The position numbers were made by a program, and so were the translations under genes. Below, piece after piece: positions 2,947 to 58,900 of a stretch of 64,000 nt of DNA. The stretch is from the NCBI GenBank assembly GCA_963662175.1, contig OY759218.1, positions 24,760,051 to 24,824,050 on the forward strand, written 5' to 3'. The notes beneath the pieces are model-generated. The model made no database searches and had not been told where the DNA came from. It saw only the letters and a program-made list of their open reading frames with translations. How positions within the stretch are numbered: the first letter of the stretch is position 1; every line of letters begins with the position of its first letter. This stretch comes from Aradus depressus (taxonomy: Eukaryota > Arthropoda > Insecta > Hemiptera > Aradidae).

Positions 2947-5900
2947 GTACGTTATTATAATTTTTTTATTTTTCATAAATCAAAACCAACATTTTACAGA
3001 AAACTAATCTCAAAAATGGCTCTTAACGAATTTCGTAATTTTATTTTGTGCACTACTCCAGTGTACAAAATAAAATTACGAAATTATAGAGGACTCCCCT
3101 CTATAGGCAAAATATGGTTAAAATATTTTCAGTTGTTCGTTTTTATAAATACATTTGTAAGGGGGGGGGATTATCCGTTTCAGGTCAAAGACTATATACC
3201 TAAGTGGTTTTTAGCTTTTGGTGGTTTAAATGTGTAAATGTTTATAATGTATGCAACACTTGTCTCTTTGATGTGAAAGCCCTGTGTCCTACAAATGTTT
3301 CCAACAAATGTGTTCATCACGTGTTGCGTCGCATGTCGCTCCGGTGTGAAAGCCACCTTATATTTCGAATCTACCTATATATTTTTTTGTTTCTTGAATT
3401 TTACCGCTTGAGTGAAAATAACGGTGTTGAATAAGATTTTTGAGTTGCGAAAGAGGGGTGAAAGAGGTGGGGAAGGAAGTGGTGGGGCGGAGAAGGTGAA
3501 ATAAACTTTTTATTCTTTGTCCGGACAAATATACTGGATATAACACGTAATCAGCTTCAGGTAGAATTATATAAAGTAGAATTATTAATGAGTTAATTAA
3601 AATAAATTTAATGAAAAAATGCGTGAAAAAACAAGAGTGGAGAGCCATGCTACCATGGCAACGAGATCAACAGGATAACAATTATTTAATACTGGGAACA
3701 CTCTTAAATCAGTAGTAGGCAACACATTGATGCCAATCGATCGGTCGATCGCAGTCTCAAGTGACAAGTCGGTTGGATATTATTGGACAAATATAGTCGT
3801 TCATGGCAGCTACGCCCCACTCTACACGCTGTCAAGCTATCTCCTTAAATATACTCCACAACTACTCCCCAAGAAGTTGTAATACCTCCACAGATATCCA
3901 CCCCGCTCAACTTCTCCGGTTTTTTGTTAAAGATTAAAGTAAATAAAAATTAAAGTTTAAGATTTTAAAAGTAGCTCTCTGACTTGGACTTTTCAAAGGC
4001 TATTGATAGCCCTATGTGAAAGTTTCGTGCAGCTCGAACCTGCTTATTTTATTTCTCTGAATTAAGTGCAGTATTTTTTGTTCTTCTGTATCTACTGGAC
4101 ACCTAAACTGACAATGTTTCCCACTGTGCGCAGCAGACTTTTAGGTTTATCAGTAAAAAGTATTATATTTTAATAAAATTGTAATTCGGTTTGCTTAATT
4201 TTCGTGGTACTGTTTATGCTAACTTCTCCTGGATCGATTTTAATAAAATTTTGCTCAATATATGTCTTAAATTGAAGAAACAATTTTCAAAAGTGCGAAA
4301 AATTGCAGTAGTTTTTTGGATATTGAGTAAAATATTAACATATGAGGCAAAAACGTTTGTCTCGAAATAAAGAGATAAGACGAACGTATTGCATATCGTT
4401 TTGAAAGCTAAGGAATTTGAAATATTTCGGGTTTTGACCGAAAATTGGTACACTTGCACTTAAAAAAAAACGTTGTTACTACAAATCATGCCTAATTTCA
4501 TTTTATTTTTTTCAGATATCTAAAACGGGAATGGATAAAAGAGTAAGGTATGATAAACAATGGAAATTACATTGGGTAGATTCACCCACTTCTTTTTTTT
4601 TCTTAATTTCTTAGTTTTCAAATGTATTCTTACATAGTTCGTTTCTGTTTTAGATTTGGAAAAATAGAAATTTTCTATATTCCAGACAAAAATGATGCAA
4701 CCAGATATAAGTTACCACTGAAGAGTGTAGTCGGCCGAATCCCCACTCCAATAGTATGTATTTTTTTTATTTTGTAATGTAAACACGAGTTATTTTTTAA
4801 TAAAGAATATCTAAAATCGGCACACACAATTAGTAAATTTGATAACAGTATGAGAAACAGTAACAGTAAAAGAAAATAATAAAGTAAAAATTAATCAAAA
4901 TCTAAAGTGACAAACAAATTATGTCAAATGGAAGCTATAAATAAAAATAAAATAAAAACAAATAAATAAAATAATTGCTTTGATAAACACGTGATAAAAT
5001 ATATACAAAATGAAAAATAGGTACCTAATAGTGAACTAAAATAAAATTATCATATGACATATATGTCATTGTCTGTCAACCGGTCCACCCCTTCTTCAAA
5101 ATTGAGGGCTACCAAAATATTTCTTATTGGTTTCAAAATGAAGTACAGTGGAATCCGCTTATTAGAATCACATCGGGACCACCGTACTTTGAACCTAATA
5201 AACGGACGATTCTAATAAACGGATTAGGTGGGGGGGGGGGGGGGGGGGGGAGAGAGAGAGTGAGAGAGAGAGAGAGAAAGAAAAATATAAAAATTAGGTA
5301 GGCATGAAAATTTTCCCATGAAATGTATTTAAAAAATCGAGGTACATAATACGAACAAAATAGGTCAAAAAATCGTCAATAAAGAAACTTTATGTACATA
5401 TTTACAGTAAAAAGTTAAGGTTTTGAAAAATATTTGTCGATTTTACTTTGCCTTAGAACGTTCGAAAGCATGTTTCGAATGTACCCCTCGTATCTATAAT
5501 GATCGGCAAAGGTCTGACCATAATGTTGGACGCCTCTTCTTAGCAAAGCCAGGGCTACCAATATGTCCATAGGTTGAATAAGGGAGGTGGTGTTTGTTGG
5601 CAAGAAAACCACATTGATCTTTTTCAAAGTAGGGAGATTATTATGGGCAGTGCAGTTATCGATAAGCCAAAGTATGGTGCATTGAAGTGTTTTGTCCCAA
5701 TCTTGTAGCCACTTTGAAAAAATTAACGACGTCACCCACGCATTCTGATTAGCAGCATACTCTACTGGAAGGGTTTTCACTCCCTTAAAACATCGGGGGT
5801 TGTTACTTTTTCCAATCACAAGAAGCTCACGTTTTTCGCCACTCATACTCGCATTTACTATTAATTATGGCTTTACTCTTTTCCGTTTTTCAGAGAATAG

Positions 5901-8362
5901 TCAGAAACTAAAACTGTTTACGCAAGTGTTATTTTTCCCCGAATACCGACCTTCCGAGAAACATCCTATTTTCCTATCTCGAAACCTCATTCTGCGTTCA
6001 TGATTGAACCCTTAAACCGGACATTCATTGCTAATAAGCGGACAAAACTCACTGTATTTTGCCGATCCGTTCCAGCGTGTTTTGATGCTAATGTGCGGAT
6101 ATTCCTATTAAGCGAATTGCTAATAAGCGGATTCCACTGTATATGGGTACTTTAGAAAGCAGAGTGGCATCTTTCAAAATCCAAGATGACTGACCTAATA
6201 TAACTGCTGAAATAACAATAAAATGTAAATTACCAAATGAAATGTACTTAACTGGTGCCACATATTAAATTTGAACAAAAGCTAACGAATGCATTATTAA
6301 TCCCTATATATTTAAGGTAACAAAAAACAGGAAAAAATCGTCCATTATATTGTTACAAAAAAAAAAAAAAATTTGAAAATGATGCTCGTTTCTTAACACC
6401 TTTAAAATTTCGAATTTTTCAGTGAAGGGATCTCACTCCCTGCCCCCCCATCCCTCCTTTTTATTCTGATTCTACCCAGCATAAGAATATTATGAACGAA
6501 TTTAGATGCCAAGAGACAAATATCGTCACCAGTTTAATAATTTCAATAACTATTTTGAATATAATGATCCATTTTTAACATCTAATTCCCTCCTTCTCTT
6601 TGGCCGATTTGGCTGAAAGTCAATAGGTGCCATCCTTAGAGGGTTCTGGATACACATATAAAATTTCGTGTCAATACATTCATTACTTCGGAAGTCATCG
6701 TGTACACAGATACACACACAGAAAGAAATTTTGTTTTTCATTTTTGATACCAGGAGGTGGGAAAACATGAAATTCCGTTGAAAACTTAACATCGAATTTC
6801 TGACCGATTACATAAATTATCCTATACTTCGTATGGCTGGGGAAGTAATTTATACTTACTGATAAATAAGTATAAAAATTTCTTTATATATTTAAAAATA
6901 TTATTTCAAATTTCAGCCATCTACAACACAGTTAATATTAGCAGCTTTAAAAGCTTCATCAAAAACTGAAAAACTCGCACAAACCGTCGTAAAAATTAAT
7001 AAAATTAAGCAAAGGATCCAGTTTGTTATAAAAATAATTTTAAAAAAGCTTTTTCATGTTACGGTAACAAAAGTTAAAAAAACTAGAAAGAACTTTTATA
7101 AAAAAAGGAAGCTAACACGGGATCATAATCCACGAAGCATTTTGAAAAGAGTTTGTGGTGAGTAATATTATTATTAAAAAATAATACTTCCTGGTTTGAC
7201 TTCCAACTATGTTGTGTTGCTTATACCTTAGTTAAGGATAACATCTTTATCATAATGGCGACGCAGGATAAAACGGGCAATGGGAAAAGGGAATGTAGAC
7301 TACGTTGTGCTAGTGGACGGTAAGAGTCCAGGAGCGGGCTCAACCCAGCCGGAGGTCCCGCAGCTTCAGGGGCTGGAGAAGTACAAGAGCACGACCAACA
7401 GAGGCCGTCTCCAGTGGAGAGGATGCGGTAGGCGGGACGATTACCCGGCCAGTGTCCAGATATGGCGGAACTCTCAAGACACCGGACTGGTACGGTAGAG
7501 GTCAGCTCTTTTGAAAGAAGCGACTTACGTTCGACTCCGAAAGAGTGCATTGAATAAAAAACATGGGGTACTTAGTATATTGATCACAACTATCCAGAAC
7601 CCAGTCGCGCCCCCATGCCAGTGAGTCTTATAGTTCAAACACTACTCAAATGATTCATAATGCGGTTATTAGTAGTCCGAACATCTTGAAGAATATACAA
7701 TAGAGTACTGAGTGGTCCCGAGTGAACCCAATTTGTTTGTCATCATCCGTCACCGTATCGACCCCTGGGGGGGGAGACACAACGACTGCGACGCTCCCCG
7801 AGAAGCCACGAACCCCGGCGGAGGACAACCCACTGTCGAGGAGTGTGGAGATGAGCGGTGGGAAGAGGCCGCGGGAGGAGGCGAGGCCTGGCGTCAAGAG
7901 CGCCAATCCCTTCGAGATAGACTTGACTAGTACGGCCAAGGAGAACGGAGCTAGGAAGCAAACCCCCCCCCCCCCCCCCACTGGCTACTTCCCTGAAGGA
8001 AGCATTCCTTTCTGCTTATGTTTTTTTTTCTCCTTAATTTTCGTCACGAAAAATTGTTTCTGATTTTATTTTAAAATAAAAATTTATTTTTACCCACTTC
8101 TTTTTCAGGCGCATTGGAGTTTGCAGAAGAGCTAACTTTTATGATCTACTTTACTCCTTTCAAATTCATAAACTCCTTCACGCTAGGCCCATACGCTGAT
8201 GTTCTGTTCAAGCATGTTACTGAACCCCATGTCTTCCCATTACCATTCCCAGCCATCAAGAAATTTTGGGATTTCATAAACAAACATCAACCTCCTCTGG
8301 TGTCACCATGGAAACGCAAGGCCTACAGACCATGGGCTACGACTAATACTCGAAAATGTTGA
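2794..8362 (+). CDS. Unrecognised lysine-rich protein, 3' part of gene (5 exons)
   Basis: Exons are 2794-2946, 4516-4547, 4654-4753, 6917-7157 and 8109-8362. All internal ends have AG acceptors and GT donors, and the phases (0, 2, 0, 1) join into one frame of 259 codons plus TGA. The first exon starts at an acceptor, so the start codon lies upstream and was not found in the window. The product is basic. It has an RVRF motif created across the exon 2/3 junction, followed by GKIEIFYIP, then a Lys/Arg-rich stretch in exon 4. The hydrophobic/aromatic C-terminal region of about 84 residues is rich in Phe and Pro. I do not recognise the family. RVxF is the known docking motif for protein phosphatase 1, but its use here is only a suggestion. 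Introns 3 and 4 hold a Tigger element and a retrotransposon-like block, and a Helitron begins 42 bp after the stop. Confidence 0.65.
4516..4547 (+). CDS. Short exon of unrecognised lysine-rich gene
   Basis: A 32-nt exon between TTTTTTCAG and GTATGA, encoding ISKTGMDKRV plus two bases of an Arg codon. It is too short to be found as an open frame. Support comes from phase compatibility with both neighbours and from the basic residues continuing into the RVRF motif. Confidence 0.55.
4654..4753 (+). CDS. Exon of unrecognised lysine-rich gene, completes RVRF motif
   Basis: 100 nt between TCTGTTTTAG and GTATGT. Its first base completes the Arg codon of RVRF, followed by GKIEIFYIPDKNDATRYK and a VVGRIPTPI end. 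The donor leaves phase 0. Confidence 0.65.
5146..6139 (-). mobile_element. Pogo/Tigger-type Tc1-mariner element, internally deleted
   Basis: Terminal inverted repeats (CAGTGGAATCCGCTTATTAG at 5146 and its complement ending at 6139) are flanked by TA on both sides, the expected target duplication. Inside, on the minus strand at 5415-5846, lies the C-terminal half of a Tigger-like DDE transposase. It shows GEKRELLVIGKSNNPRCFKG, LIDNCTAHNN with the second catalytic Asp, and FLPTNTTSLIQPMD. Several G-runs and GA repeats follow the left end. At 994 bp it is far shorter than a complete element. It sits in intron 3 of the plus-strand gene. Confidence 0.9.
5415..5846 (-). pseudogene. Tigger/pogo transposase fragment (DDE domain)
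   Basis: 143 codons on the minus strand matching the central and C-terminal DDE region of Tigger-like transposases (DNCTAH and NTTSLIQPMD blocks). The N-terminal CENP-B-like DNA-binding half is missing and the usual QPMDQG reads QPMDIL, so the protein is not functional. Confidence 0.85.
6420..6845 (+). repeat. ACTTCCCC-family modular repeat, copy with right end
   Basis: Contains the family's right part: 'AAACATGAAATTCCGTTGAA', 'TTTCTGACCGATTACATAA' and the terminal CTTCGTATGGCTGGGGAAGT at about 6826-6845. The left end is missing. It lies in intron 3 of the plus-strand gene. Confidence 0.7.
6917..7157 (+). CDS. Exon of unrecognised lysine-rich gene, basic region
   Basis: 241 nt from AATTTCAG to donor GTGAGT. 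It encodes 80 residues with many Lys/Arg (for example KKTRKNFYKKRKLTRD), suggesting nucleic-acid binding or nuclear localisation. It ends in phase 1. Confidence 0.7.
7256..7990 (+). mobile_element. GC-rich block resembling the 5' end of a retrotransposon
   Basis: This stretch inside intron 4 is much richer in G and C than its surroundings and has short open frames such as 7722-8063 (TPGGGDTTTATLPEKPRTPAED...). The proline/glutamate-rich frame, C-tract and sharp compositional edges fit a retrotransposon 5' region with the start of a gag-like ORF1, but no diagnostic motif was found. It could also be another GC-rich insertion. Confidence 0.35.
8109..8362 (+). CDS. Terminal exon of unrecognised lysine-rich gene
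   Basis: Acceptor TTTTTCAG precedes 8109, and the phase completes a Gly codon. 83 codons then end at TGA (8360-8362). The sequence is well ordered, with FTPFKFINSFTLGPYADVLF, HVFPLPFPAIKKFWDFINKH and PWKRKAYRPWATTNTRKC. Only 42 bp separate the stop from a Helitron, so the native 3' UTR and poly(A) site have probably been displaced. Confidence 0.75.
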
Positions 8363-8404
8363 ACATAATATTATTTATTATAGTTATATTATTATATAAA
8401 TATA

Positions 8405-9614
8405 TCATATATATATATATATAAAGCTGAAAATGTCTGTGCGTTGTACCGCTATAACTCACGAACGGCTTGATGGATTTGATTAATTTTTTTTTTAATT
8501 AAGAGAACCAGTGTTCATCGGTGGCCGTGGAAATACGTCAGGACTTCAGGATAAACTGCCGACAGATCGCGGGTTAAAAGGCTGCGTCAGACATTTGCAG
8601 ATTAACGATTACATGTATAAATTTGCGCCGGTTCCGAAGGGAGACGCTGTGAAAGGATTTGACATAGGTACTATAGATATAAATATATATATGTACACTA
8701 GAATTTGCGTAAACATCGCAATTTTCCTTCTAAATTTACAATTATGTATTATAATGTTTGTATATTTTTTTGCAGAAGAGTGCGTTGCTGATCGTTGCAG
8801 TAAGGTTCCGTGTCAACATGGCGGAAAATGTCTAACTTCCGGTGAAACGGCTGTATGTCTTTGTCCTCTAGGCTTCATCGGCGATCTTTGCGAAACCAGA
8901 CTCGACTTATTGGTAATTTAATCATCATCATCAAATATAAAAAGCTGAAAATGTCTGTGCGTTGTACCGCTATAACTCACGAACGGCTTGATGGATTTGA
9001 TTAATTTTTTTTAAATTTGTTCGTCATCGTCTGTGGAAGGTTATAGGCGTATTAGTACCTCAATATCTGGTCCATCCCAGCATCCACCCACGCAATCTTT
9101 GTAACTCAAAAACCACTGCAATGATTAATGAGGAATCTTTTTGAATAGATAAGTTTTATCTACCGGAAGGTTAAGGTCTATTTTTTAATCAACCCCTGGT
9201 CCATCCCAGCATCCACTCACGCAATCTTTGTAACTCGAAAACCATTGCAACGATTAATGAGAAATCTTTTTGAATAAATTAGTTTTAGCTCCAGGATGGT
9301 TGAAGTCTATGTTTTAATCAACCTGGTGGTCACAAGCGTTCTCAAGTACGCACTGGCTAGGACGTCCACTGATGCTAAGTATTCACTAGCTGTGGTTTCC
9401 GCCGTTGAATGGCGCGTACTAGCCATGGTGCCCAGGGGTCCTAAAAACTTACTAGCTGGGATGTCTGCCGTTGAAGGACTATAAGCGTTATTCCTTATGA
9501 ATAATTGAAAATTATAACATCATGAATGTACTATTGAAGAATTGAAATGATTCGAACGAGAGATATTAGGAGAAAAGTCAAAGTTCCCCGGGCAACGCCG
9601 GGTATTACTGCTAG
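8405..9614 (+). mobile_element. Chimeric Helitron carrying captured LamG-gene exons
   Basis: The element starts with TC directly after an A and ends in CTAG directly before a T, the known A|T insertion rule of Helitrons. The last bases form the hairpin CCCGG-GCAACG-CCGGG about ten bases before CTAG. Layout: a first Helitron 5' end (8405 to about 8502), a 428-bp host segment (8503-8930), then a second 5' end at 8931 running to the 3' end. The second part has extra 33/66-bp repeat units (about 9294-9485) like those of the 4.7 kb element at 42401. There is no Rep/helicase gene, so it must have moved in trans. Confidence 0.88.
8503..8930 (+). pseudogene. Captured partial exon 6, intron 6 and exon 7 of the LamG/EGF gene
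   Basis: As far as I can align by eye, both exon parts are identical to the reverse complement of 22756-23185; the clear difference is in a TA-repeat within the intron. Copied are the last 165 bp of exon 6, the intron with donor and acceptor, all of exon 7 (an EGF module with six cysteines) and 15 bp of the next intron. The 5' 25 bp of exon 6 and its acceptor are absent. A frame runs 8511-8921, but it includes intron sequence and has no start of its own. This is a recent duplicate, not an independent gene. Confidence 0.9.
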
Positions 9615-10170
9615 TATTTTTATAATTTGGAACTGGGTTTTAATATTTTAATAGTAATAACTCGAAAACATTACAACATTAGAAGAAAATATACTGGACG
9701 TAAGTATTTCTTAAGAAATAGGTCTGACCAAATCTATAAATAACAATTTTTTTCTATTTATTTTAATTTTACTTATTTTTTTTTTTGATCTATAGTGGAT
9801 GCGGTACATAGAATGTAACGTGCGAAATTGTATTGGAATATGCCACTTGGAACACGGGTTGGGTATTTAAAAAACAACAATTTAGAGACATAAATTTTCG
9901 AGTAGAACCAAAATAGAGCTGTTTTCTAAAGTCACAGCTGCCCGAAAAACTGAGGAGTTGCGCTTCAAATTCATTCGTCCGAATAAATATACATTAATTT
10001 CTATAGACATAATTTCCATCGATCCATGGACCTCTCCTTCCTAGACTCCACTGTACCACTGGAGAGTGTCCGACACTTCTCGCCATTCTTTTTCGTCCGC
10101 TAATCCTATTTCGGAAACGCTAATGGCCATAGTAGCCTTTCATTAAAAGAAAAAAAAACTGTTTTAATTA
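9615..10170. other. Unassigned intergenic DNA
   Basis: AT-rich, with no open frame or splice-bounded exon that I can support. No recognised repeat ends were seen. Confidence 0.4.
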
Positions 10171-19800: not shown

Positions 19801-22800
19801 CCCGAGCCTGTGTGGTGTCAGGTACTCGTTAAAGGCCCCTACACTAGGTGAATAAAAATTTAGGGTAGGCGAAATAGTAGAGTCGGGCTCATGGGGCACC
19901 ACCAGAGCGCTCTGGTAGTAGGCGATATGTCCTCGTAGTTAAAGCCCGGGCATGAATCATAATAAAACTAATTACGATTAGTTATACTAAACTATAGACC
20001 TTATTTTACCTACGTTAGCTGTTGCCAAATAACTAAGTTTTCCATAAGCATTTATTTATTTTTTTCGGCGAACCTTTAGGTCCCTGGGTGACATCGGTTC
20101 TGTCTATGGCGGTAGGATCTTCAAGGTGTTGTGGAAATAGCCTCAAGTTATGAGCTTGTAAGCTAAATTATATATAGTAGAACAAATAAAGATTACACTG
20201 CTTACCTTTTGAATGCACCCTATGAAGGAGGTTCTAACTTTAACTTTTGGCGACACCATATCAAAATTTGGAATTCCTCCAATATAGAGATTTAGGGGAA
20301 GGTAAAGTTGAGTGAATGCGCCTGGAGATAATATTTGCGTTGAAGGTTTAGCGTCGACTTGTAGAACTGCAAGACGTCCCGTTCTGGAAATGGATACCTC
20401 GTGCCATTCTCCAAGGCTTAAAGGTTCTGAGCTCCTAAACAAAAGAAAAAAAAATGCTCACATGAAATCAAATAATGATAACAATAATTAAGATAATCGG
20501 AATCTGATGAACTCTTGGACAAGTGTTCATATCGGGACCAAGTCTAGTTTCATGTGATGCCCTAGGACAGTGGTCGGCAAACTTATTAGCCAAAGAGCCA
20601 AATATGAACATTACGACAATTAAAAAAAAAATTTGGGAGCCAAATCTGCTTGTTTAGTAAACTTTTATTACACTAAATAAGTAGTACACTAAATAAAACA
20701 AAATTTCATACTTAATAAATATTTATTAATGCGAACAATGTGCTTGCATCTTCTTGGAAAGTTTGAGTAAGTCAGGTTTGTATGTTGTTGTTTTTAATTT
20801 TAGGCATGATTCCAAGTTCTCATCAATAAGACGACTTCTCAGTTTACTCTTGATAATGTTCATGCTTGAAAAAGATTGTTCGCATATATATGTAGAACCG
20901 AAAAGGGAAAGAACAGCAAACGCGAGCTTTTTCAGCTGATCGTAAGAGTCAGGAATACTATTCCAAGCGTTGAAAATGATCATGTCTTCCTTCTAAAATA
21001 AAAAATTTTAATTACCTATCTATCTTTTAACTTAAACAAAAAATTATACATGTTCTCGATTTATAGAAGAATTTTAATTTATCAAAATAAGATGTAATTT
21101 TTTTCTTACCCAGTTTTTTTAAAATGAAAATATTGCGCCTTCCGTGGATATTTGTGCCAGAGCCACACACGAGCCAAAGAGCCACATGCGGCTCTGGAGC
21201 CGCACTTTGCCGACCACTGCCCTAGGAGACGGTATAGTCCTAGTTTTAAAGGGACATCAGGTTGGTTCGGCCTTCGGGAGTCAGATGTCTCTCCAAACCA
21301 CAATCAAATCCGGGTTCAGTGGAGCTTTAATTTAATAATAGTAACGTGAAAACACTTGCCGAATTGTTGCAGCACCAGTCCCCAGATCGAAAGTAAACTC
21401 CAAATGTCCATCGCAGATATACATAGCGATAAAATCTCCAACGCCATCAGCTCTATGCCCATTATAGAGTATGACGCCATTTTGTGAATTAGGTTTGAGT
21501 ATTATGTTAACATCCAGCCAAGAGAGTGCTGACCCACCCAAACCTGGGTACCTAAGGTAGCTCGAACCATTGAAAGCAGGAACCTAGACATTGAAAAAAT
21601 AGAATTGTTAGCAAAACAATATAATTAAATGTTTCTTGAAATGCGGTATCCAACAACCACTTTTTGTAGTTATTCTTAACCATTAAAAAAAGCGCTTGTG
21701 GGAGGGCATTAACTACAGGTAAATATTTTTGAAAACACATCACACTATATGCCAGACTTGGAAAACCTGACCCCACATTACCTCTGGTCTCACAAGGCTA
21801 CTGAAATTTTGGGGAGACAGATTATTAAATTTTATTCATATCATAGGCAATATTTAGAGCAAAATTAAATTACAAAAATGATTAGGCTTGCTCCTAAAAT
21901 AAACAGAAATCCAATTTTTTGTTACGTGATCCAAGATGGTGATCTCTCTGCCTCTATAAAGTGTGCAGGTAGCTTATATTAACAGATATGACGATAAAAC
22001 GAACATATATGACACCCAACGCAGCTCAAAAATATATCCCTATGTATTTTTTGGGGTGGGGGTCCCCTCTATGGATGATGGTGAACGAAAAAAAAAATTA
22101 TTTTTTTTACGTTAAGAGAAGGGAGGGGAGAGAAGAATTATTTTTATTCCGAGTATCACGTTAGTATCAGAGCTTCAGGGAAAGTAATATAATACAAAGT
22201 TACTGCCGGGGAATCTCCTATTATTAATAATACTAGCAGTAATACCCGGCGTTGCCCGGGGAACTTTGACTTTTCTCCCAATATCTCCTATAAGGCTATT
22301 CAGTTCCTCGACAGTACATTCATGATGTTATAATTTTCAATTATTCATACGGAATAAGGCTTATAGTCCTTCAACTGTAGTAACGCTAGCTTTGGAGCTA
22401 AAACTAATTTATTCAAAAAGATTTCACATTAATCGTTACAATGGTTTTCGAGTTACAAAGATTGCGTGAGTGGATGCTGGGATGGACCAGGGGTTGATTA
22501 AAAAACAGACCTTAACCTTCCGGTAGATAAAACTTATCTATTCAAAAAGATTCCTCATTAATCATTGCAGTGGTTTTTGAGTTACAAAGATTGCGTGGGT
22601 GGATGCTGGGATGGACCAGATATTGAGGTACTAATACGCCTATAACCTTCCACAGACGATGACGAACAAATTAAAAAAAAATTAATCAAATCCATCAAGC
22701 CGTTCGTGAGTTATAGCGGTACAACGCACAGACATTTTCAGCTTTTTATATTTGATGATGATGATTAAATTACCAATAAGTCGAGTCTGGTTTCGCAAAG

Positions 22801-25800
22801 ATCGCCGATGAAGCCTAGAGGACAAAGACATACAGCCGTTTCACCGGAAGTTAGACATTTTCCGCCATGTTGACACGGAACCTTACTGCAACGATCAGCA
22901 ACGCACTCTTCTGCAAAAAAATATACAAACATTATAATACATAATTGTAAATTTAGAAGGAAAATTGCGATGTTTACGCAAATTCTAGTGTATATATATA
23001 TATATATATATCTATAGTACCTATGTCAAATCCTTTCACAGCGTCTCCCTTCGGAACCGGCGCAAATTTATACATGTAATCGTTAATCTGCAAATGTCTG
23101 ACGCAGCCTTTTAACCCGCGATCTGTCGGCAGTTTATCCTGAAGTCCTGACGTATTTCCACGGCCACCGATGAACACTGGTTCTCGAAACGTCATTCTTG
23201 AAAATAAGCCCTATGGAGAGGAAAATAATGAAAAATGTAGTTAGTTTATGAATAATAATGCATTACTAAACGTATGGGACGAAAATTGTCCCTAGTTTAA
23301 CTTTTGAACGAGTAGTCCTATGAGTTCGAAAGTTAAGCTTCCAAGTTGAAGCTCAATCGAATGAAGTTTAGTTTTGTGCGATGTCATGGACACTAATCAT
23401 GAAAAAAAAGGCCTCTAAGATTTTGAATTAGAAGGTTTGAAATGAAGGTTTGAATTAGAAATACAACGGGCATAGATTCCTGAAGTTGAACAAATTCCGA
23501 AATTATGTTTCTTTATTTTCTGTATATACCAGTTTTTCCACTTTTTCTCTTTATTTTCTTCTTCCTATTCATACTGAATACTGAAGACGAAGAAGTTGCA
23601 TACTTTTCGATAGAGTTAACAGATTTGAAAAACCTTTGCGAATTCAATATGAAGAGAGGTTTCTAACGATTTATAATACACCATAACTTCCCATTGGATA
23701 TTTTAAAGTTATTGTTTAAGGCGCAGCTCTTTTGACCATTTGTTCAAAAGTTAAGACAAGGGAAGGACTTGAAATTAAAAGTAGTTCAAATTATAATCTA
23801 CTAAGTTTAGTTAAAAAATATTGATGGATATGATTACGTGGGATATCAAATGAAAGGTAATGATATGTAAAACTGGAATATAATACTAACAGGAATATAA
23901 TTGTTGTTGGTTTTAATTTTAAAGTTTAAACAAAAACAATTTTGATGATAAAAATCTGAGAAAATTCTTTGAAACATAGAGGAAACTTTCAAAAAATTGT
24001 ATTCGTATGAAATCGGAACAATAATATTGTAAGGAGAGGGGGGAATTGTTTCTAATATTTCTTTAGTTTCAAAAAGGTCCAACCCAATAATGGGATGTGA
24101 AAATAACTCCATTTATTAATTATGAAAAGAATATCCTACAAATTATATTAATTAATATTTATTTTGTACGAGAAAAGCATTTAAGTTAACCTTCAGCAAC
24201 GAAACCTACAAGGAGAGGATACGATGTCGGGGTCACGGATTTTGATCAAACTTTTTTTTGCATGTTCTAGGTCGTAAATAAGAAGACATGTGTCTCATCG
24301 TTCGTTCTAATGGACCTTGGTTTGGTCGCAAACAATTTTTGAAAATGTCCTTTTGGCCATTTTTCGTTATTTTTTTTTTCTCGGCATGTGTTTTACCGAA
24401 TGAGGAGTTCTCTACGTAATTTTTTTTTACCCAGATTTCAGAAAAAATATTTTCGCGTTGATTTGAGCAGTGAAATTATTTAAAAAATTGAAAAAACTTT
24501 TTTTTTCCAAGAGAACATGGAGAGAAAATTTTTTCATGAAAACTAATTTGAAATTCGTGTTTTCCATGTCGGAAAACCATTGAATTGTTAGTAACGTTGG
24601 CTGAAAACAACCTGTTCTGTAAATACGGAAGCAATTACAAAGTCTATGGAACTGTCAACAAATTATGAAACTTAATTTCTTAGCCATACGTGAGTATTGA
24701 TGTAATTACAATAAAATATATCACCATCTATATTTTGTTTATATGTTTATTATTATACTTATTAAATTCAATGATACAAAAAACGCTCCGCCCATTTTGA
24801 CTTCGGACAACCCTAGTTATGGCAGATTTTGATTACCTTAGATCTTCCTTGGACGTGTTTTCCAGAGTTAAGTTGAATCCATGCGTCCCATCGATGTCTA
24901 TAGAGAGTTATTCGGTTCCATTGGTTCAGTACAACTGTCTCTAAAGATCTGACAGTCCCTACCCCAGAACCACAGTCAAACCTAAAATTAAAAAAGGATT
25001 ACATTCAGCAAACACACAGGAGGGAGATATCAGAGCACTGGATGCTTAGATCCCTAGGTGCAAGCCATCCCAACTATTATATAATATAGAAAATGGAAAA
25101 GGAAATTCATAGGCACAGTTGTCTTGCCTTATCAGTTATTTTCCCTTACCCTTTCAAAAGACCATAGTCCACCAAAAAAAGTAAATCATGCCTGCCAACA
25201 TTGACGCGGCGATACGAGTTTCTTTTTATAATAAAAATTGGAACATTTTCGCAAAAACTAGCAGCCCTTTCAATGTTGGTGTTTTAATAGTTAAACATCA
25301 ACGGATAGTCGACAGAAGCATGAATAAAAACTAGAGCTGTAGGCAATTATTATGTCTAGAGCCCGGATTTCGTGCAGAAAATAAATTTAAAAAACGTGCA
25401 AACATGTGCAACAAAAAATAAAATCCTGCCATTTACTGTTTTTTTGCGAAAAAAAAAATATGGATCTAATTTGTAAATTAAATAACTCTTTTTTCGGCAT
25501 AAAACTGGGAAGGATTTAAAAATAAATCAATAAAATAAAGAGCCTAAAGGAATTTATATAAAATATTTACTGAAAACACAAGTTTTTTTTTTTACTTGCA
25601 CGTTTTAATTACAAAAGAAAAATGTTTGTTTAAAAGAATACTAGAGATATGTAAAATACAAAACAGTTCACCACATTACTCGAGGCCGAGAATTTGACTT
25701 CAATTAAATTTATATATTTTTTTATTTGATGCGTTAAAATTTACTACTAAATTAATTTCAAAATTCTTGTCTGAAACATTTTGCCGCCTGTCGCTAAGTA

Positions 25801-40100: not shown

Positions 40101-43100
40101 TTCTGAAAACTGTATGCTCTTCAATGCTTCGTACATAAGTTTATGTGCTCTAATGCCTCGATTATACTGTGTACCTTTAAGAATTGACGCCAAAGTATTA
40201 ATACCATAAACATTGGCTTCAATGAGAATACTATGGAGTCCACTTCCTTCTATAAATTGGCTCAAGAATCGCAAGAAATTTTTTTGTAGATGAAATGTTT
40301 CAATTCTCAATATCAATCCCTGAAATTCTTGACTTGTTAGTTGTAAGTATATCTTTTGCTATGAGATATATTCACATGTCGCACAAAAGAACAGAGAGAC
40401 ATTTGTACTAAATTGAGACTATATTTCTGAAGTACCTAAATTCTGAATAAGAAAAAATAAATGGAGAAATACCACTTCAAATTCCTTTCAAGACTAAGAG
40501 CAATCAAGATAATGGTATTTAAGAAAACCACAAATTAGTCAGCTAAAGCCAAGATTAATCTTAACTTTGAATCAAGAAAATGTTCATAATTTCATGTCTC
40601 TGTGAAATTATGAGTATTTCCTTGATTAAAGTTCATTATAAAATTCTCATTTAAAAAGGGGAGGATAAAGATGAACGAAAAAAAAAGACATTTTAGATTG
40701 TCTGCAATCTTCGTCACAAATATATCCTCCAGTGTACCTTGACATTAATCTCACCCCTTCTAAAAACTAAGTCCGCTTTCAGAGCCTCCTACTTGACCAG
40801 AGAATTACCTGGAACCCACACACAAGAAATAAATACACTTGACCAGAGATCTATATTATTTTTAAATCTTTATTTTGTAATGTAATTAATTGAAAATAAA
40901 ACTGGTTCTGGATTTGAGCCCAGGATCTTCACATGAGAAAGAGACGTCTGAACCACTCAACCAGGAAAAAAAGTTATCAGTGGCTAATTAATTATTTCAT
41001 TCAATAAATAGACTCATGGGTAGAATTGTTTCTATGTTATTTTTGTATTGTAATGGAATATCTGATATTTACGTGGAAGACAAAGTTATTATGTTATTTT
41101 ATGCATAAGGACATTGTGAACAATATTAATTGCATAATAAATCCATTTTCACATCTAGTCATGTAATTATTCCAAAGCAGCAGCATAGACGATGAAGCAG
41201 CGCCATCCCATCCTCTATCCTTTCCTTTACAACATCTTAGTTCTATTAATTCGGATAAATGAGACCCCTTTCATTACCTTTTAGGAGTTCCACAGGCTGC
41301 TATATAAAAATGTACTCTGACCTCTTACATATTTTATTATAATATGCTAGCCGGCTTTCGAGTTTCCCTTGGGTTTCTCTCAGTTGTGACTAAGGTGGCG
41401 AATAGGAATAACATAGATCTGTTATGGACAGATATCCACATCCATGAAATTTTAAATCTTTTTGAATATTTATATATATATATATATATAACTAAACGTG
41501 ATACCTCATATGTGCAAAAAGCTTTTACAATAATAAACCTAAATTTTTTCGACATTTGTATTAAGTGAGGTATATGCATGCCATGAATTGTTTTTAAGCT
41601 AGTTTGCAAATCCAAGTAAAGATTAACGTACTTGACGGAGTTACGAGGTTTAACCCGAATTTCGTTCCCATTTCTTTTGCAAGGTACGGTTCTTCAAACC
41701 GTATTTCTTGTTTTTTTTTCGTTTTATGTCGTATACGAGGTCCCACTAGATCAATAGAGGTTTTTTGGTAAAAAAAACGATTTTAGGAAAAATGTCGCTT
41801 ACGAGGTATCACGTTTAGGCCGACGATTTATTCATATATGTATTTTATGAGATAACCGAGTAAAATGTCATGAGAGCTTACTGCAAGTGATTATTAAATG
41901 TATTTTGTTTTCGAAATTTTAGAGTATATATGTACATTTTCCACAGCTTTATTCTTCTCCTAATTTATGTTGGATCTTTAACAACCTTGCACTTAGATGT
42001 TTCGGGAAGAACTCCCATCATCTGTATCTATTTTAATTTATTTACTGATTCTCATATTAAGCTAGTTTGTAAATCCAAGTAAAGAATTAACGTATTTGAC
42101 GGAGTTACGAGGTCTCACTAAATCAAGAGCTTTTTTTTTTTTTTTGTAAAAAAACAATTTTCGAAAAAATGTCGCTTACGAGGTATCACGTTTAGGCCGA
42201 AGATATATAGGTATATATACAACTCTCATATAAAGTAGAGAAATCCAGGAATTCTTCTAGTAGAAAATCTGATGGAAACTTGAAGTGTTTTGTTTTACTA
42301 GGAATTTTAAAATCATGGCCTGGCAATACAGTTTTTTGCTTGTGAGCGCGCCGATATCGTGTAAGTTTGCATAAGCCCAACCGGTACACTTATGTATACA
42401 CTAGCAGTAATACCCGGCGTTGCCCGGGGAACTTTGATTGTTGTCCCAATATCTTCTATAACGCTATTCAGTTCCTCGACAGTACATTCATGATGTTATA
42501 ATTTTCAATTATTCATACGGAATAAGGCTTATAGTCCTTCAGCTGTTGTAACGCTAGTAAGTTTTTAGGACTCCTGGGCACCACAGCTAGTATGCGCCTT
42601 TCAACGGCGGAAGCCACACCTATTGAATACTTAGCATCGCTGGACGTCATAGTCAGTGCGTACTTAAGAACGTTTGTGACCACAGCTAGTATGTGGCTTG
42701 CAACGCTGAGCACCACAGCTAGTACGTAGTTGGGAATGCTGGGCATCATAGCTAGTATGTGCCTTGCAACGGCGGACCCAACAGCTAGTACGTAGTTAGG
42801 AACGCTGGTCACCACAGCTAGTATGTGCCTCGCAACAGCGGACCCCACAGCTAGTACGAAGTTAGGAACGCTGGGCATCACAGCTATTAAGTGCCTTGCA
42901 ACAGCGGACCCCACAGCTAGTATGTAGTTAAATACGCTGGGCATTACAGTTAGTAAGTGCTTTGCAACAGCGAACTTCACAGCTAGTACATAGTTAGGAA
43001 CGCTGGGCACTACAGCTAGTAAATGCCTTGCAACAACGGACCCCACAGCTAGTACGATATTAGGAACCCTGGGCATCACAGCTAGTATGCTTTTGCAACG

Positions 43101-46100
43101 ACGGACCCCACAGCTAGTACGTTTTTAGGAACGCTGGGCCCTACAGGTAGTAGGTGCCTTGCAACTGCGGACCCCACAGATAGTATGTAGTTAGAACCAC
43201 AGAGCATCACAGCTAGTATGAGTTTTGCAACGGTGGACCCCACAGCTAGTACCTACGTAGTTAAATACGCTGGGCCACACTGCTAGCGCCTTGCAACAGC
43301 GGACCCCACAGCTAGTATGTAGTTAAATACGCTGGGCATTACAGTTAGTAAGTGCTTTGCAACAGCGAACTTCACAGCTAGTACATAGTTAGGAACGCTG
43401 GGCACTACAGCTAGTAAATGCCTTGCAACAACGGACCCCACAGCTAGTACGAAGTTAGGAACGCTGGGCATAACAGCTATTAAGTGCCTTGCAACAGCGG
43501 ACCCCACAGCTAGTACGTAGTTAAATACGCTGGGCATTACAGTTAGTAAGTAAGTGCTTTGCAACAGCGAACTTCACAGCTTTACATAGTTAGGAACGCT
43601 GGGCACTACAGCTAGTAAATGCCTTGCAACAACGGACCCCACAGCTAGTACGATATTAGGAACCCTGGGCATCACAGCTAGTATGCTTTTGCAACGACGG
43701 ACCCCACAGTTAGTACGTTTTTAGGAACGCTGGGCCCTACAGGTAGTAGGTGCCTTGCGAATGCGGACCCCACAGATAGTATGTAGTTAGAACCACAGGG
43801 CATCACAGCTAGTATGAGTTTTGCAACGGTGGACCCCACAGCTAGTACCTACGTAGTTAAATACGCTGGGCCACACTGCTAGCGCCTTGCAACAGCAGAC
43901 CCCACAGCTAGTACGTAATTAGGAACGCTGGAATCCCCCCCTCCCGTTCAAAACATTGGGACGCCACACACCTTATTTTTCTATTTGGCCTTCAGGAATA
44001 CTCCATGTGAAATTTCGTGACAATCCGACCAACCGTTAAAGAATTAGCTCTATATTTATACTTAGGCCCCCCCACAACCCCCCCTCCCGTTCAAAACTTT
44101 GGGACGCCACACACCTTTTTTTGCTATTTGGCTTTTAAAAATACTACATGTGAAATTTCATGACGATTCGCCCATTAGTTAATGAGTTAGCTCTATATTT
44201 ATACTTAGGCCCCCCCACTACCCCCCCTCCCGTAAAAACTTTTGAGCCGTCACACCGCCTAATTTTTATTTGGTCTTCAGGAATACTACATGTGAAACTT
44301 CGTGACAATCCGACCAACTGTTAAAGAGTTAGCTCTATATTTATATTTAGGCCCCCCCACAACCCCCCCTCCCGTTCAAAACTTTGGGACGCCACACACC
44401 TTTTTTTGCTATTTGGCTTTTAAAAATACTACATGTGAAATTTCATGACGATTCGCCCATTAGTTAATGAGTTAGCTCTATATTTATACTTAGGCCCCCC
44501 CACATCCCCCCCTCCCGTTCAAAACATTGGGACGCCACACACCTTATTTTTCTATTTGGCCTTCAGGAATACTCCATGTGAAATTTCGTGACAATCCGAC
44601 CAACCGTTAAAGAATTAGCTCTATATTTATACTTAGGCCCCCCCACAACCCCCCCTCCCGTTCAAAACTTTGGGACGCCACACACCTTTTTTTCCTATTT
44701 GGCTTTTAAAAATACTACGTGAAATTTCATGACGATTCGCCCATTAGTTAATGAGTTAGCTCTATATTTATACTTAGGCCCCCCCACAACCCCCCGTCCC
44801 GTTCAAAACTTTGGGACGCCACACACCTTTTTTTCTTGTTTGGCTTTTAAAAAGACTACGTGTGAAATTTCATGACGATTCGCCCTTTAGTTAATGAGTT
44901 AGCTCTATATTTATACTTAGGTCCCCCCACAACCCCCCCTCCCGTAAAAACTTTTGAGCCGTCACACCGCCTATTTTTTTATTTGGTCTTCAGGAATACT
45001 ACATGTGAAACTTCGTGACAATCCGACCAACTGTTAAAGAGTTAGCTCTATATTTATACTTAGGCCCCCCCACAACCCCCCTCCCGTTCAAAACTTTGGG
45101 ACGCCACACACCTTTTTTTGCTATTTGGCTTTTAAAAATACTACATGTGAAATTTCATGACGATTCGCCCATTAGTTAATGAGTTAGCTCTATATTTATA
45201 CTTAGGCCCCCCCACATCCCCCCCTCCCGTTCAAAACTTTGGGACGCCACACACCTTATTTTTCTATTTGGCCTTCAGGAATACTCCATGTGAAATTTCG
45301 TGACAATCCGACCAACCGTTAAAGAATTAGCTCTATATTTATACTTAGGCCCCTCTTACAACCCCCCCTCCCGTTCAAAACTTTGGGACGCCACACACCT
45401 TTTTTTCCTATTTGGCTTTTAAAAATACTACGTGAAATTTCATGACGATTCGCCCATTAGTTAATGAGTTAGCTCTATATTTATACTTAGGCCCCCCTTA
45501 CAACCCCCCCTCCCGATCAAAACTTTGGGACGCCACACACCTTTTTTTCCTATTTGGCTTTTAAAAATACTACGTGAAATTTCATGACGATTCGCCCATT
45601 AGTTAATGAATTAGCTCTATATTTATACTTAGGCCCCCCCACAACCCCCCTCCCGTTCAAAACTTTGGGACGCCACACACCTTATTTTTTTATTTGGCCT
45701 TCAGGAATACTCCATGTGAAATTTCGTGACAATCCGACCAACCGTTAAAGAATTAGCTCTATATTTATACTTAGGCCCCCCTTACAACCCCCCCTCCCGT
45801 TCAAAACTTTGGGACGCCACACACCTTTTTTTCCTATTTGGCTTTTAAAAATACTACGTGAAATTTCATGACGATTCGCCCATTAGTTAATGAGTTAGCT
45901 CTATATTTATACTTAGGCCCCCCTTACAACCCCCCCTCCCGATCAAAACTTTGGGACGCCACACACCTTTTTTTCCTATTTGGCTTTTAAAAATACTACA
46001 TGTGAAATTTCATGACGATTCGCCCATTAGTTAATGAGTTAGCTCTATATTTATACTTAGGCCCCCCCACAACCCCCCGTCCCGTTCAGAACTTTGGGAC

Positions 46101-55923: not shown

Positions 55924-58900
55924 CTGAAAAAAAATTTAATAAGTTTGTAATTACATATTAACATGAAAGATTTCTTAAATAATAACATTAAAATAAAAAT
56001 AATAATTTAAATAATAAAAGAGATAATTAGTTATTGTGATTATTCACGCCCGGGCTTTAACTATGAGGTCATATCGCCTAGTACCAGAGTGCTCTTTTGT
56101 CGCTCTGGTGAACATGAACCCGACTCTACTCTGAGAGTCCTAAATTTTGCCAACTCCGGTTTATTCACCTAGAATAGGGGTCTTCAACGAGTACCTGACA
56201 TCGCACAGGCTCGGGACCATCGATTAACGTCCCATCCGAAGGACGGCGTACTTAAGTTTATTTTACCTGCCAGATAAAATAAACTAAGGGCCTCGGTCGG
56301 GTTACGAACCCACGATCTTGTGCTCAGAAGACAAGCACGCATACTACTGAGCTACCGGCGCCCTCTTTCAATGAACGCGAAGGGCGACGTGCTCAAGGTT
56401 TTTTCAGCTCCCAGATAAAAAACCAAAGAGCCTCGGCCGGTACCCGCGATTTTGAGCTTAGTAGACAAAATGCTACTGCTACCTCTGAGCTACCGACGTC
56501 GTCAAATGAAATTATATATAAAAAACAGGTTAAATGGTATTATAAATAATAATAGCCTTTTTATTTGCTTCCTTAAGGTTCACAATAATAATAGTAATAA
56601 ATATACATTTGTACAAATTGGAAACTAGGCCCATCTTTGGACATAGGCCTCTCCCATTTTATTCCGTACACCCCTGTCCCAGGCCGACCTGTGCCAGAGA
56701 CTCCCTGCTAACCTGTCCAGATCGTCCCGCCACCGCACCATAAATAATAATATGACTATTTAAATAATACAAGAATATTTAAAAAATATATAATGGTAAA
56801 GTGTGCTCCGTGCCTATACGTAAAAGGGTTTTGTAGGTCAATTTCTTCATTTTGTACAGCGTGGAGTGATGTGATTAATAGTGACAGGCTATCTACAGGT
56901 TGCCATCGTGTTCCAAACATCATCGGCAGTCGAAAGAAATGTAAAAACAAACGTATACTGATGCCGCCGCCCATCCATCCTACCATCGAGGTCCCGCACC
57001 AGCTGGGTTGTGTATATGCTTATGAACATAGAGTTAAATACCGCTAAATATGATTAAAAATATATATTCGGCTATATGCAGTCATGTTTCAAAGAGAACC
57101 CTCGATTCTTTCTACGTTTAAAAAAAAAGTTGAATTATAAAAAGTGAATTTTTATTATACTCTTCTGATTGACATTCAATTTCATTCTTCTTTTAAAATT
57201 TGCTCTTCACTATTTAGGCCCTTCGGCATTTACATTCCAAATTGGGTTAATGACATCTTAATGCTAAAAATTGCGATACAAACCTGGCTTTTGGCTCTTA
57301 TTCTGATATGACCAGTGACTGGAGCATTTGGTTTGTTGAAGGGTTTTTCAATACTCAAATTCGCCAAAGCATCTTCTCCAAAAATTGAACGGGCGTACAT
57401 ATTGGCGGCCATAAATCCACATTGGCCGCAAAGAGCTTTTTCCGGAGTCAAACATTTCATGTTGGTGCTTTTCAGCAGATGTGCTAAATACTCGTGTAAG
57501 TCAACCAAATGAGTATTCACAGAAACCTGAAAAAAACAAACAAAAAAAAACATGTAAAGTTTGACAGGTAATGTCCTCATTGGGTGTTGGCTTTAAATAT
57601 GGAATTCATGTCAATACATTCATTACATCAGCAGCTATTGGGATTTATGAGTTGAGCCCCTTCTGCCGATTCCGCTGAAAATTGAATCCAATTTTGTGTC
57701 GATACATTCATTACAACGGCGGTTATTAGTTTTTGAGTTACGCCTATCCCCTAGTCCCCCCTCCCCGTTGGCCGATTTGGCTGAAGATCGATAGGTGTCA
57801 TCCTTTTCGGTTTTTTTGGTCACGATACATTCATTTTATCGGCAGTTATTAGAGCTTTTATGCTAAGCCTCCCCTCTAATCGTCCCTCCCCTTTGGTCGA
57901 TTTGGCTAAAAAAACAATAGGTGTCGTTGTTAAAGGGTTCTGAATTCGCATATAATTGCGTTTTGTTCGTTTCATGTCGATACATCTATTTTCTATAGGG
58001 AGTTATCGTGTTCTCGACACACAGACATGTGTTTTCTTCATATTTTGAATCTAGAGGTCGGAAAACATGAAATTCCGTTGAAAACTCCGCATCCAATTTC
58101 TGATCGATTACATAACTTCCCCTATACTTCATTTAGCTGGGGAAGTAAAATATTGTGTTTTCGGGAAATATTACGAAGTATACATAATATGTTAATCGAT
58201 TGTTAGTCTATCAATTTTCCTATAACCCCTCCTCCCCATTCTTGTCTGACTTGGCTGATTATTTAGAGGTGATCATATATATAAAGCTGAAAATGTCTGT
58301 GCCTTGTACCGCTAAACTCACGAACGGCTTGATGGATTTGATTAATTTTTTTTAAAATTTGTTCGTCATCGTCTGTGGAAGGTTATAGGCGTATTAGTAC
58401 CTCAATATCTGGTCCATCCCAGCATCCACCCACGCAATCTTTGTAACTCAAAAACCACTGCAATGATTAATAAGGAATCTTTTTGAATAGATAAGTTTTA
58501 TCTACCGGAAGGTTAAGGTCTATTTTTTAATCAACCCCTGGTCCATCCCAGCATCCACTCACGCAATCTTTGTAACTCGAAAACCATTGCAACGATTAAT
58601 GAGAAATCTTTTTGAATAAATTAGTTTTAGCTCCAAAGCTAGCGTTACTACAGTTGAAGGACTATAAGCCTTATTCCGTATGAATAATTGAAAATTATAA
58701 CATGAATGTACTGTCGAGGAACTGAATAGCCTTATAGGAGATATTGGGAGAAAAGTCAAAGTTCCCCGGGCAACGCCGGGTATTACTGCTAGTTTACTAT
58801 ATTTAGAAAAAATATAACGATTATTAAAAAGGGCGACAAGAATTAAAACAAAATTATTGATAAAAAATGAATTTTCCATATATTTTTTACTTCCTCAGCT

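Follow-up and report, generated by a model that had tools for sequence, protein, structure and literature searches.

A pikachurin gene segment within a chimeric Helitron of Aradus depressus and its probable origin by break repair from a nearby template

Results

The stretch that we analysed (the window) is a 64-kb piece of a 698-Mb Aradus depressus assembly, C13:24760051-24824050, and all positions given below refer to it unless a contig is named. The plus strand carries the last coding exon of an upstream gene (8111..8362), which was read by eye from its splice site and reading frame and is backed by its translation and by a paralogous copy; Pfam returned no family for the exon at 8111-8359. 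The stop codon of this gene ends 42 bp before a composite Helitron of 1,210 bp (8405..9614, hereafter the product), which has the same orientation as the gene, begins with TC, finishes with CTAG and lies between A(8404) and T(9615). As judged from this arrangement, the copied exons described below may be located within the 3′ UTR of the upstream gene. The TC at 8405 and the CTAG at 9611-9614 agree with the 5′ TC and 3′ CTRR expected of Helitrons, and the same ends are present in most of the 56 aligned copies of two subfamilies, A and B, that are compared below. A 5-bp hairpin (CCCGG/CCGGG, -10.1 kcal/mol) is found 12 nt before the element end. By its termini, its insertion between A and T and this hairpin, the product resembles a canonical, non-autonomous Helitron.

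Between these ends, several parts follow one another on the plus strand. The left stump (8405..8500), recognized from genome copies and from its own sequence, is the first ~95 bp of an outer Helitron 5′ end; 31 of the 39 other genome copies listed for the query 8360-8510 match to exactly 8500, and the remaining eight stop 1-6 bases before it. The stump is followed by a 2-nt filler, AA (8501..8502), which neither parent supplies at that place, and by a 428-bp segment copied from the pikachurin gene (8503..8930). With exon limits set from GT/AG and the reading frame, this segment comprises part of exon 6 (8503-8667), intron 6 (8668-8775, GT...AG), exon 7 (8776-8912) and 18 bp of intron 7 (8913-8930). 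A second, complete Helitron occupies 8931-9614, and a 78-bp Helitron 5′ end occurs twice in the product. This inner Helitron consists of a 5′ part (8931..9293), whose tip (8931-8940) is assigned to the donor by a 27-mer search and by tables of site states, and of a body and 3′ end of the A subfamily (9294..9614), assigned by comparison of A and B sites and including the hairpin and the CTAG. An earlier note on this DNA had already recognized a second Helitron 5′ end upstream of the host DNA, which corresponds to the stump, and had described the content of the copied segment correctly except for the intron 7 part, which it put at 15 bp.

Comparison with a paralogous site defined the limits of the insertion. 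The left flank (8005-8404) matches C13:24844703-24845105 at 93% and the right flank (9615-9930) matches C13:24844381-24844702 at 84%, and these two matches are adjacent to the base in C13:24844381-24845105 (locus L079), an inverted copy of the last exon and 3′ flank of the upstream gene that lies ~75 kb off. A 13-mer from the Helitron core was absent from both strands of the 2.4 kb around the paralogue. Because the joined flanks align through the junction of the paralogue without a gap, the 1,210 bp represent a precise insertion between A and T, with no target-site duplication relative to the paralogous empty site, as is typical of Helitron insertion. It follows that the inserted unit is bounded by the outer 5′ end on one side and by the 3′ end on the other. 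Since the empty site is a paralogue and not an allele, it gives no date for the event.

The copied segment has its counterpart in the same window. When 8405-9614 was compared with the 64-kb window by BLAST, 8503-9293 aligned with 23185-22393 at 99.1% over 793 columns with an E-value of 0, a value that rules out chance similarity. The donor host segment (22756..23185, minus strand, 430 bp) belongs to the pikachurin (EGFLAM) gene: in a protein search with the donor exons joined by hand, the best matches were pikachurins, those of true bugs first, with identities of 87% for Cimex lectularius and 90% for Nezara viridula. Donor and product host parts differ solely in the TA tract of intron 6, by one mismatch and two 1-base gaps, and there are no mismatches in the exon 6 and exon 7 parts, in agreement with the earlier note. 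Intron 6 is retained in the product, which identifies the segment as a DNA-level copy and rules out a retrocopy. Adjoining the host segment, intron 7 of the donor gene contains a plain Helitron of the B subfamily (22233..22755, minus strand), which starts at 22755 exactly where the host segment ends, just as its counterpart in the product starts at 8931; this coincidence had been pointed out in the earlier note as well. At its other end, the copied segment begins 25 nt inside exon 6 of the donor, and no second Helitron 5′ end was seen in the donor sequence at that place.

Insertion and donor segment are separated by 13,142 bp on one contig and lie in inverted orientation. A random pair would fall within this distance with a chance of ~4e-5 genome-wide, or 5e-4 for its own contig. 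The event had been called very recent and 14 kb away; local copying is borne out, and the event looks recent because no exon mismatch was found.

A genome search for further copies, proposed in the earlier note, was done with the query 22750-23800 (1,051 bp). The full segment was recovered at the donor and in the product only, the four other matches being of 32-36 bp and all within the TA tract. The pattern of the left junction, with up to three mismatches allowed, was found once genome-wide in the assembly as searched; no other composite was thus found that could have been the source of the product. The insert is therefore a DNA-level copy of sequence present at one other place. Other interrupted Helitron 5′ ends were looked for among 84 pieces in the sampled loci and none was seen: 78 pieces continue normally, five are the product itself in overlapping loci and one is cut by the end of its locus.

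To compare the two Helitrons, an A set of 30 loci was collected with the product Helitron as query and a B set of 30 with the donor-site Helitron. Removal of the product and donor loci left 29 copies of each type, of which 28 A-type and 28 B-type copies were aligned (L029 and L072 were dropped). Because 40 each of 2,507 (A) and 56 (B) candidates were scored, the sampled copies are the most query-like ones and not a random draw. From 9294 onwards, the product agrees with A at all sites that distinguish the majority sequences of the 28 A and 28 B copies, and the donor-site element is B throughout the matching region. In addition, a stretch of 159 bp (9295-9453) that 28/28 sampled A copies contain is missing from the donor and from 28/28 B copies. 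When the element is compared over its full length, the product departs from the majority sequence of A at 3 of 684 sites and from that of B at 25 of 522; for the donor, the corresponding numbers are 27 of 524 (A) and 5 of 524 (B). The 5′ tip gave the opposite answer. The A at 8934 is shared with the donor and occurs in 0/28 A copies and 1/28 B copies; the A at 8940 is likewise shared with the donor and occurs in 0/28 and 9/28, respectively. Moreover, the 27-mer that starts at 8931, TCAAATATAAAAAGCTGAAAATGTCTG, has exactly two occurrences in the 698 Mb, at the donor and in the product. With a tip unique to the donor and a body of the A subfamily, the inner Helitron is, on these sequence comparisons, a chimera in which the tip of the donor element sits on an A body.

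Related sequences were seen elsewhere. A Helitron 3′ end at 42401-42683 (minus strand) adjoins ~19 copies of a 66-bp unit (42681-43931), after which ~18 copies of a 143-bp repeat begin at 43935 and continue at least to 46500, the limit of the scan. Product positions 9385-9483 match the 66-bp array at 74-79%, which indicates that the A subfamily carries related sequence. A plain B-subfamily Helitron lies between A and T at about 58270-58792. In locus L071, Helitrons stand in tandem, with a 5′ end directly after the CTAG of another element, twice (~2000-2035 and ~3430-3475).

As read from the alignments, the changeover from donor (B) to A sequence is located somewhere in 8941-9293. Three further donor alleles fall within this bracket, at 9180 (3/28 B copies), 9248 (13/28) and 9260 (1/28), and all of them are absent from the product. 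Their absence suggests an early switch, and later change at the donor could also account for it; since the three alleles occur together in none of the 28 B copies, the bracket that we regard as certain remains 8941-9293. Position 9013 was not used as a switch marker (the base is A in 17 and T in 11 of the A copies, and T in 17 and A in 11 of the B copies). Nor was the length of the T run that lies ~85 bp into the Helitron family (8487-8500 and 9005-9017), where a T run followed by an A run takes eight forms among 23 A matches and seven among 21 B matches. In the stump this stretch reads T10AATT, in the inner copy T8AAATT and in the donor T9AATT. Exact matches in the sampled loci numbered 5/23 (A) and 11/21 (B) for T10AA, 2/23 and 1/21 for T8AAA, and 3/23 and 0/21 for T9AA. 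Given these forms, no single A element fits both stump and body unless the stretch changed or the filler was longer; if the resident element had a shorter T run, the filler would extend to 8 nt (TTAATTAA, 8495-8502). The stretch may be fragile or slippery, and we treat the T run as mutable, although the forms seen in stump, inner copy and donor are hard to trace to a single parent. The stump sequence cannot tell A from B; that it shares its origin with the body is therefore deduced from the single insertion.

The earlier note had read the product as a new 5′ end, host exons and the old Helitron, that is, as the donor-site Helitron having moved together with its 5′ flank by means of an added second 5′ end. 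The coincidence of the donor Helitron start with the end of the host segment, together with the outer 5′ end and proper termini of the product, speaks for this reading, and PMC4067079, in the part available, raises the possibility that host DNA is captured when neighbouring Helitrons transpose as a composite. The subfamily comparison points the other way: the downstream Helitron ceases to be that of the donor no later than 9293, since the product body is A, the donor element is B and 159 bp of the product are absent from the donor. That the donor-site Helitron simply transposed together with its 5′ flank can be rejected because the body is of the wrong subfamily, and with no second 5′ end seen 25 nt inside exon 6 at the donor, the version with an added 5′ end appears quite unlikely. 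In a hypothetical variant, the donor-site element was once A-type, moved in that way and was later turned into B by ectopic gene conversion. Conversion of the body alone would spare the unique tip, but the variant calls for an extra event at the donor, leaves the outer 5′ end unexplained and seems to us very improbable. Finally, both loci were read from an assembly, in which one locus could have been duplicated or made chimeric. The TA tract of intron 6 is not identical in donor and product, and a simple mis-join would not produce a subfamily switch together with outer flanks that exactly match a paralogous empty site, which makes an artefact scarcely credible.

We consider it probable, from the sequence features described above, that a break in a resident A-Helitron was repaired from the donor B-Helitron and the adjoining pikachurin DNA. 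A plain, non-autonomous A-subfamily Helitron would have been resident between A8404 and T9615 and would have suffered a double-strand break in the T-run/AATT stretch, ~95 bp from its 5′ terminus. Of the two break ends, the one on the right, being Helitron sequence, would then have invaded its homologue, the inverted B-Helitron that lies 13 kb away in intron 7 of pikachurin. Leftward synthesis would have copied the 5′ tip of the B-Helitron and, beyond it, host DNA from intron 7 through exon 7 and intron 6 into exon 6, and the new strand, once freed, would have been attached to the left stump by end joining, with a filler of 2-8 nt. This would be one-sided synthesis-dependent strand annealing (SDSA) finished by end joining, the filler-DNA or repair-mediated duplication route. 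One-sided coupling of homologous and end-joining repair is known from break-repair experiments.

Such a repair would explain the order of the parts, the doubled 78-bp 5′ end and the presence of a donor tip on an A body, as well as the asymmetry of the junctions, with extended Helitron homology on the right and a filler of 2-8 nt on the left. The end of the stump corresponds to about 9012-9017 of the inner copy and falls inside the 8941-9293 bracket, as a single break predicts. A spacing of 13 kb is very improbable by chance and natural for repair from a nearby template. Several points count against repair: the T-run forms, which do not trace neatly to one parent, the three donor alleles that the product lacks, the left junction, where no microhomology was seen, and the distance, which, though it makes the donor linked and near, lies outside the 5-kb class of PMC2671141 as given in the available text.

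Template switching had been named as one option in the earlier note, which also set aside read-through past the 3′ end, and both points stand, in contrast to its proposal of an old Helitron supplied with a second 5′ end. Read-through or end bypass is rejected since the captured DNA lies 5′ of a complete body and the usual 3′ end is kept. Switching or break repair during transposition would have copied an A-Helitron, then the pikachurin strand, then the B-Helitron and then A sequence again, before insertion at 8404/9615. It would account for the precise Helitron ends against the A^T empty site and for the same template blocks, and one copy is expected if the composite arose in that very event. 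Against this, two switches are needed, one of them a return to an A element, whether the original or a different one, and the insertion must by chance have landed 13 kb from its template; we regard this course as unlikely, though less so than the other alternatives. The chimera, the one left junction, the two copies of the host segment and the precise empty site together fit repair of a broken A-Helitron better, and on that reading the break would have come after insertion rather than during it.

Discussion

Beyond this locus, we tentatively suggest that dispersed Helitron copies might, by virtue of their homology, provide break repair with landing pads. A broken copy would invade a nearby copy, run off its 5′ end and thereby gain upstream host DNA. 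If this were true, capture would favour host segments that adjoin Helitron 5′ ends, and much of what looks like 5′ capture by Helitrons would be repair-made chimeras that arose without transposase.

Several routes have been proposed for gene capture by Helitrons, and the mechanism is called unsettled in the accessible text of PMC6544945. A literature search by titles and the beginnings of abstracts returned no paper on this locus or on a Helitron triple of donor, product and empty site, and the portions available of PMC13317346 and PMC4289320 contain nothing against the repair reading. The closest parallels are the repair-mediated duplications of Pace et al. (2009, PMC2671141), in which, according to the text at hand, a transposon is interrupted by a duplicate of one other place, with filler at breakpoints, the signature of SDSA and duplicated exons with their splice sites. 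Among those human duplicons in interrupted transposons, the donor lies within 5 kb in 824 of 1,136, deletions, filler or microhomology are found at 51 of 68 examined breakpoints, and distant-donor duplicons are mostly retrocopies (PMC2671141, same text). The present case differs in its anchorage on one side, where two Helitron copies share extended homology, in its distance (13 kb as against the under-5-kb class) and in its host, an insect rather than a vertebrate.

Among insect Helitrons, the filler model for Hel1 likewise ascribes host DNA inside a Helitron to repair of an internal break, and as cited in the part of PMC6544945 available, this model predicts short homology at both sides. The Hel1 cases show end junctions of 2-13 bp at each source locus, and the elements were then amplified (PMC6544945, same part). 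Here, in contrast, one copy was found, with long Helitron homology at one end and no microhomology at the other. In DNA transposons of animals, captures present as a single copy are mostly ascribed to gap filling, and the single-copy Pack-TIRs, explained by transposition-independent gap filling, resemble our case in being single, in having a template on the same chromosome and in lying inside a DNA transposon (PMC8277862, from the accessible portion); unlike the Helitron described here, they are terminal-inverted-repeat elements. With 3′ transduction by Helraiser (PMC4778049, as far as its available text goes) the product shares host sequence inside Helitron termini, but Helraiser end bypass takes DNA downstream of the 3′ end, whereas here the host DNA is located in the 5′ part and the 3′ end is that typical of the family.

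In the available texts of these compared cases, the anchors are microhomologies or short end junctions. Here, one of the anchors is the homology of two Helitron copies, and this accounts for the position of the captured DNA right next to a Helitron at the donor locus. In our best reading, the event belongs to the known filler-DNA (SDSA) class, and its value lies in how unusually completely it can be read: about 77 kb of a single contig hold the donor, the product and the paralogous empty site, and the subfamily difference between the two Helitrons separates repair copying from transposition of the donor element. This suggests subfamily chimerism of the element body as a simple diagnostic for captured segments in Helitron-rich genomes.
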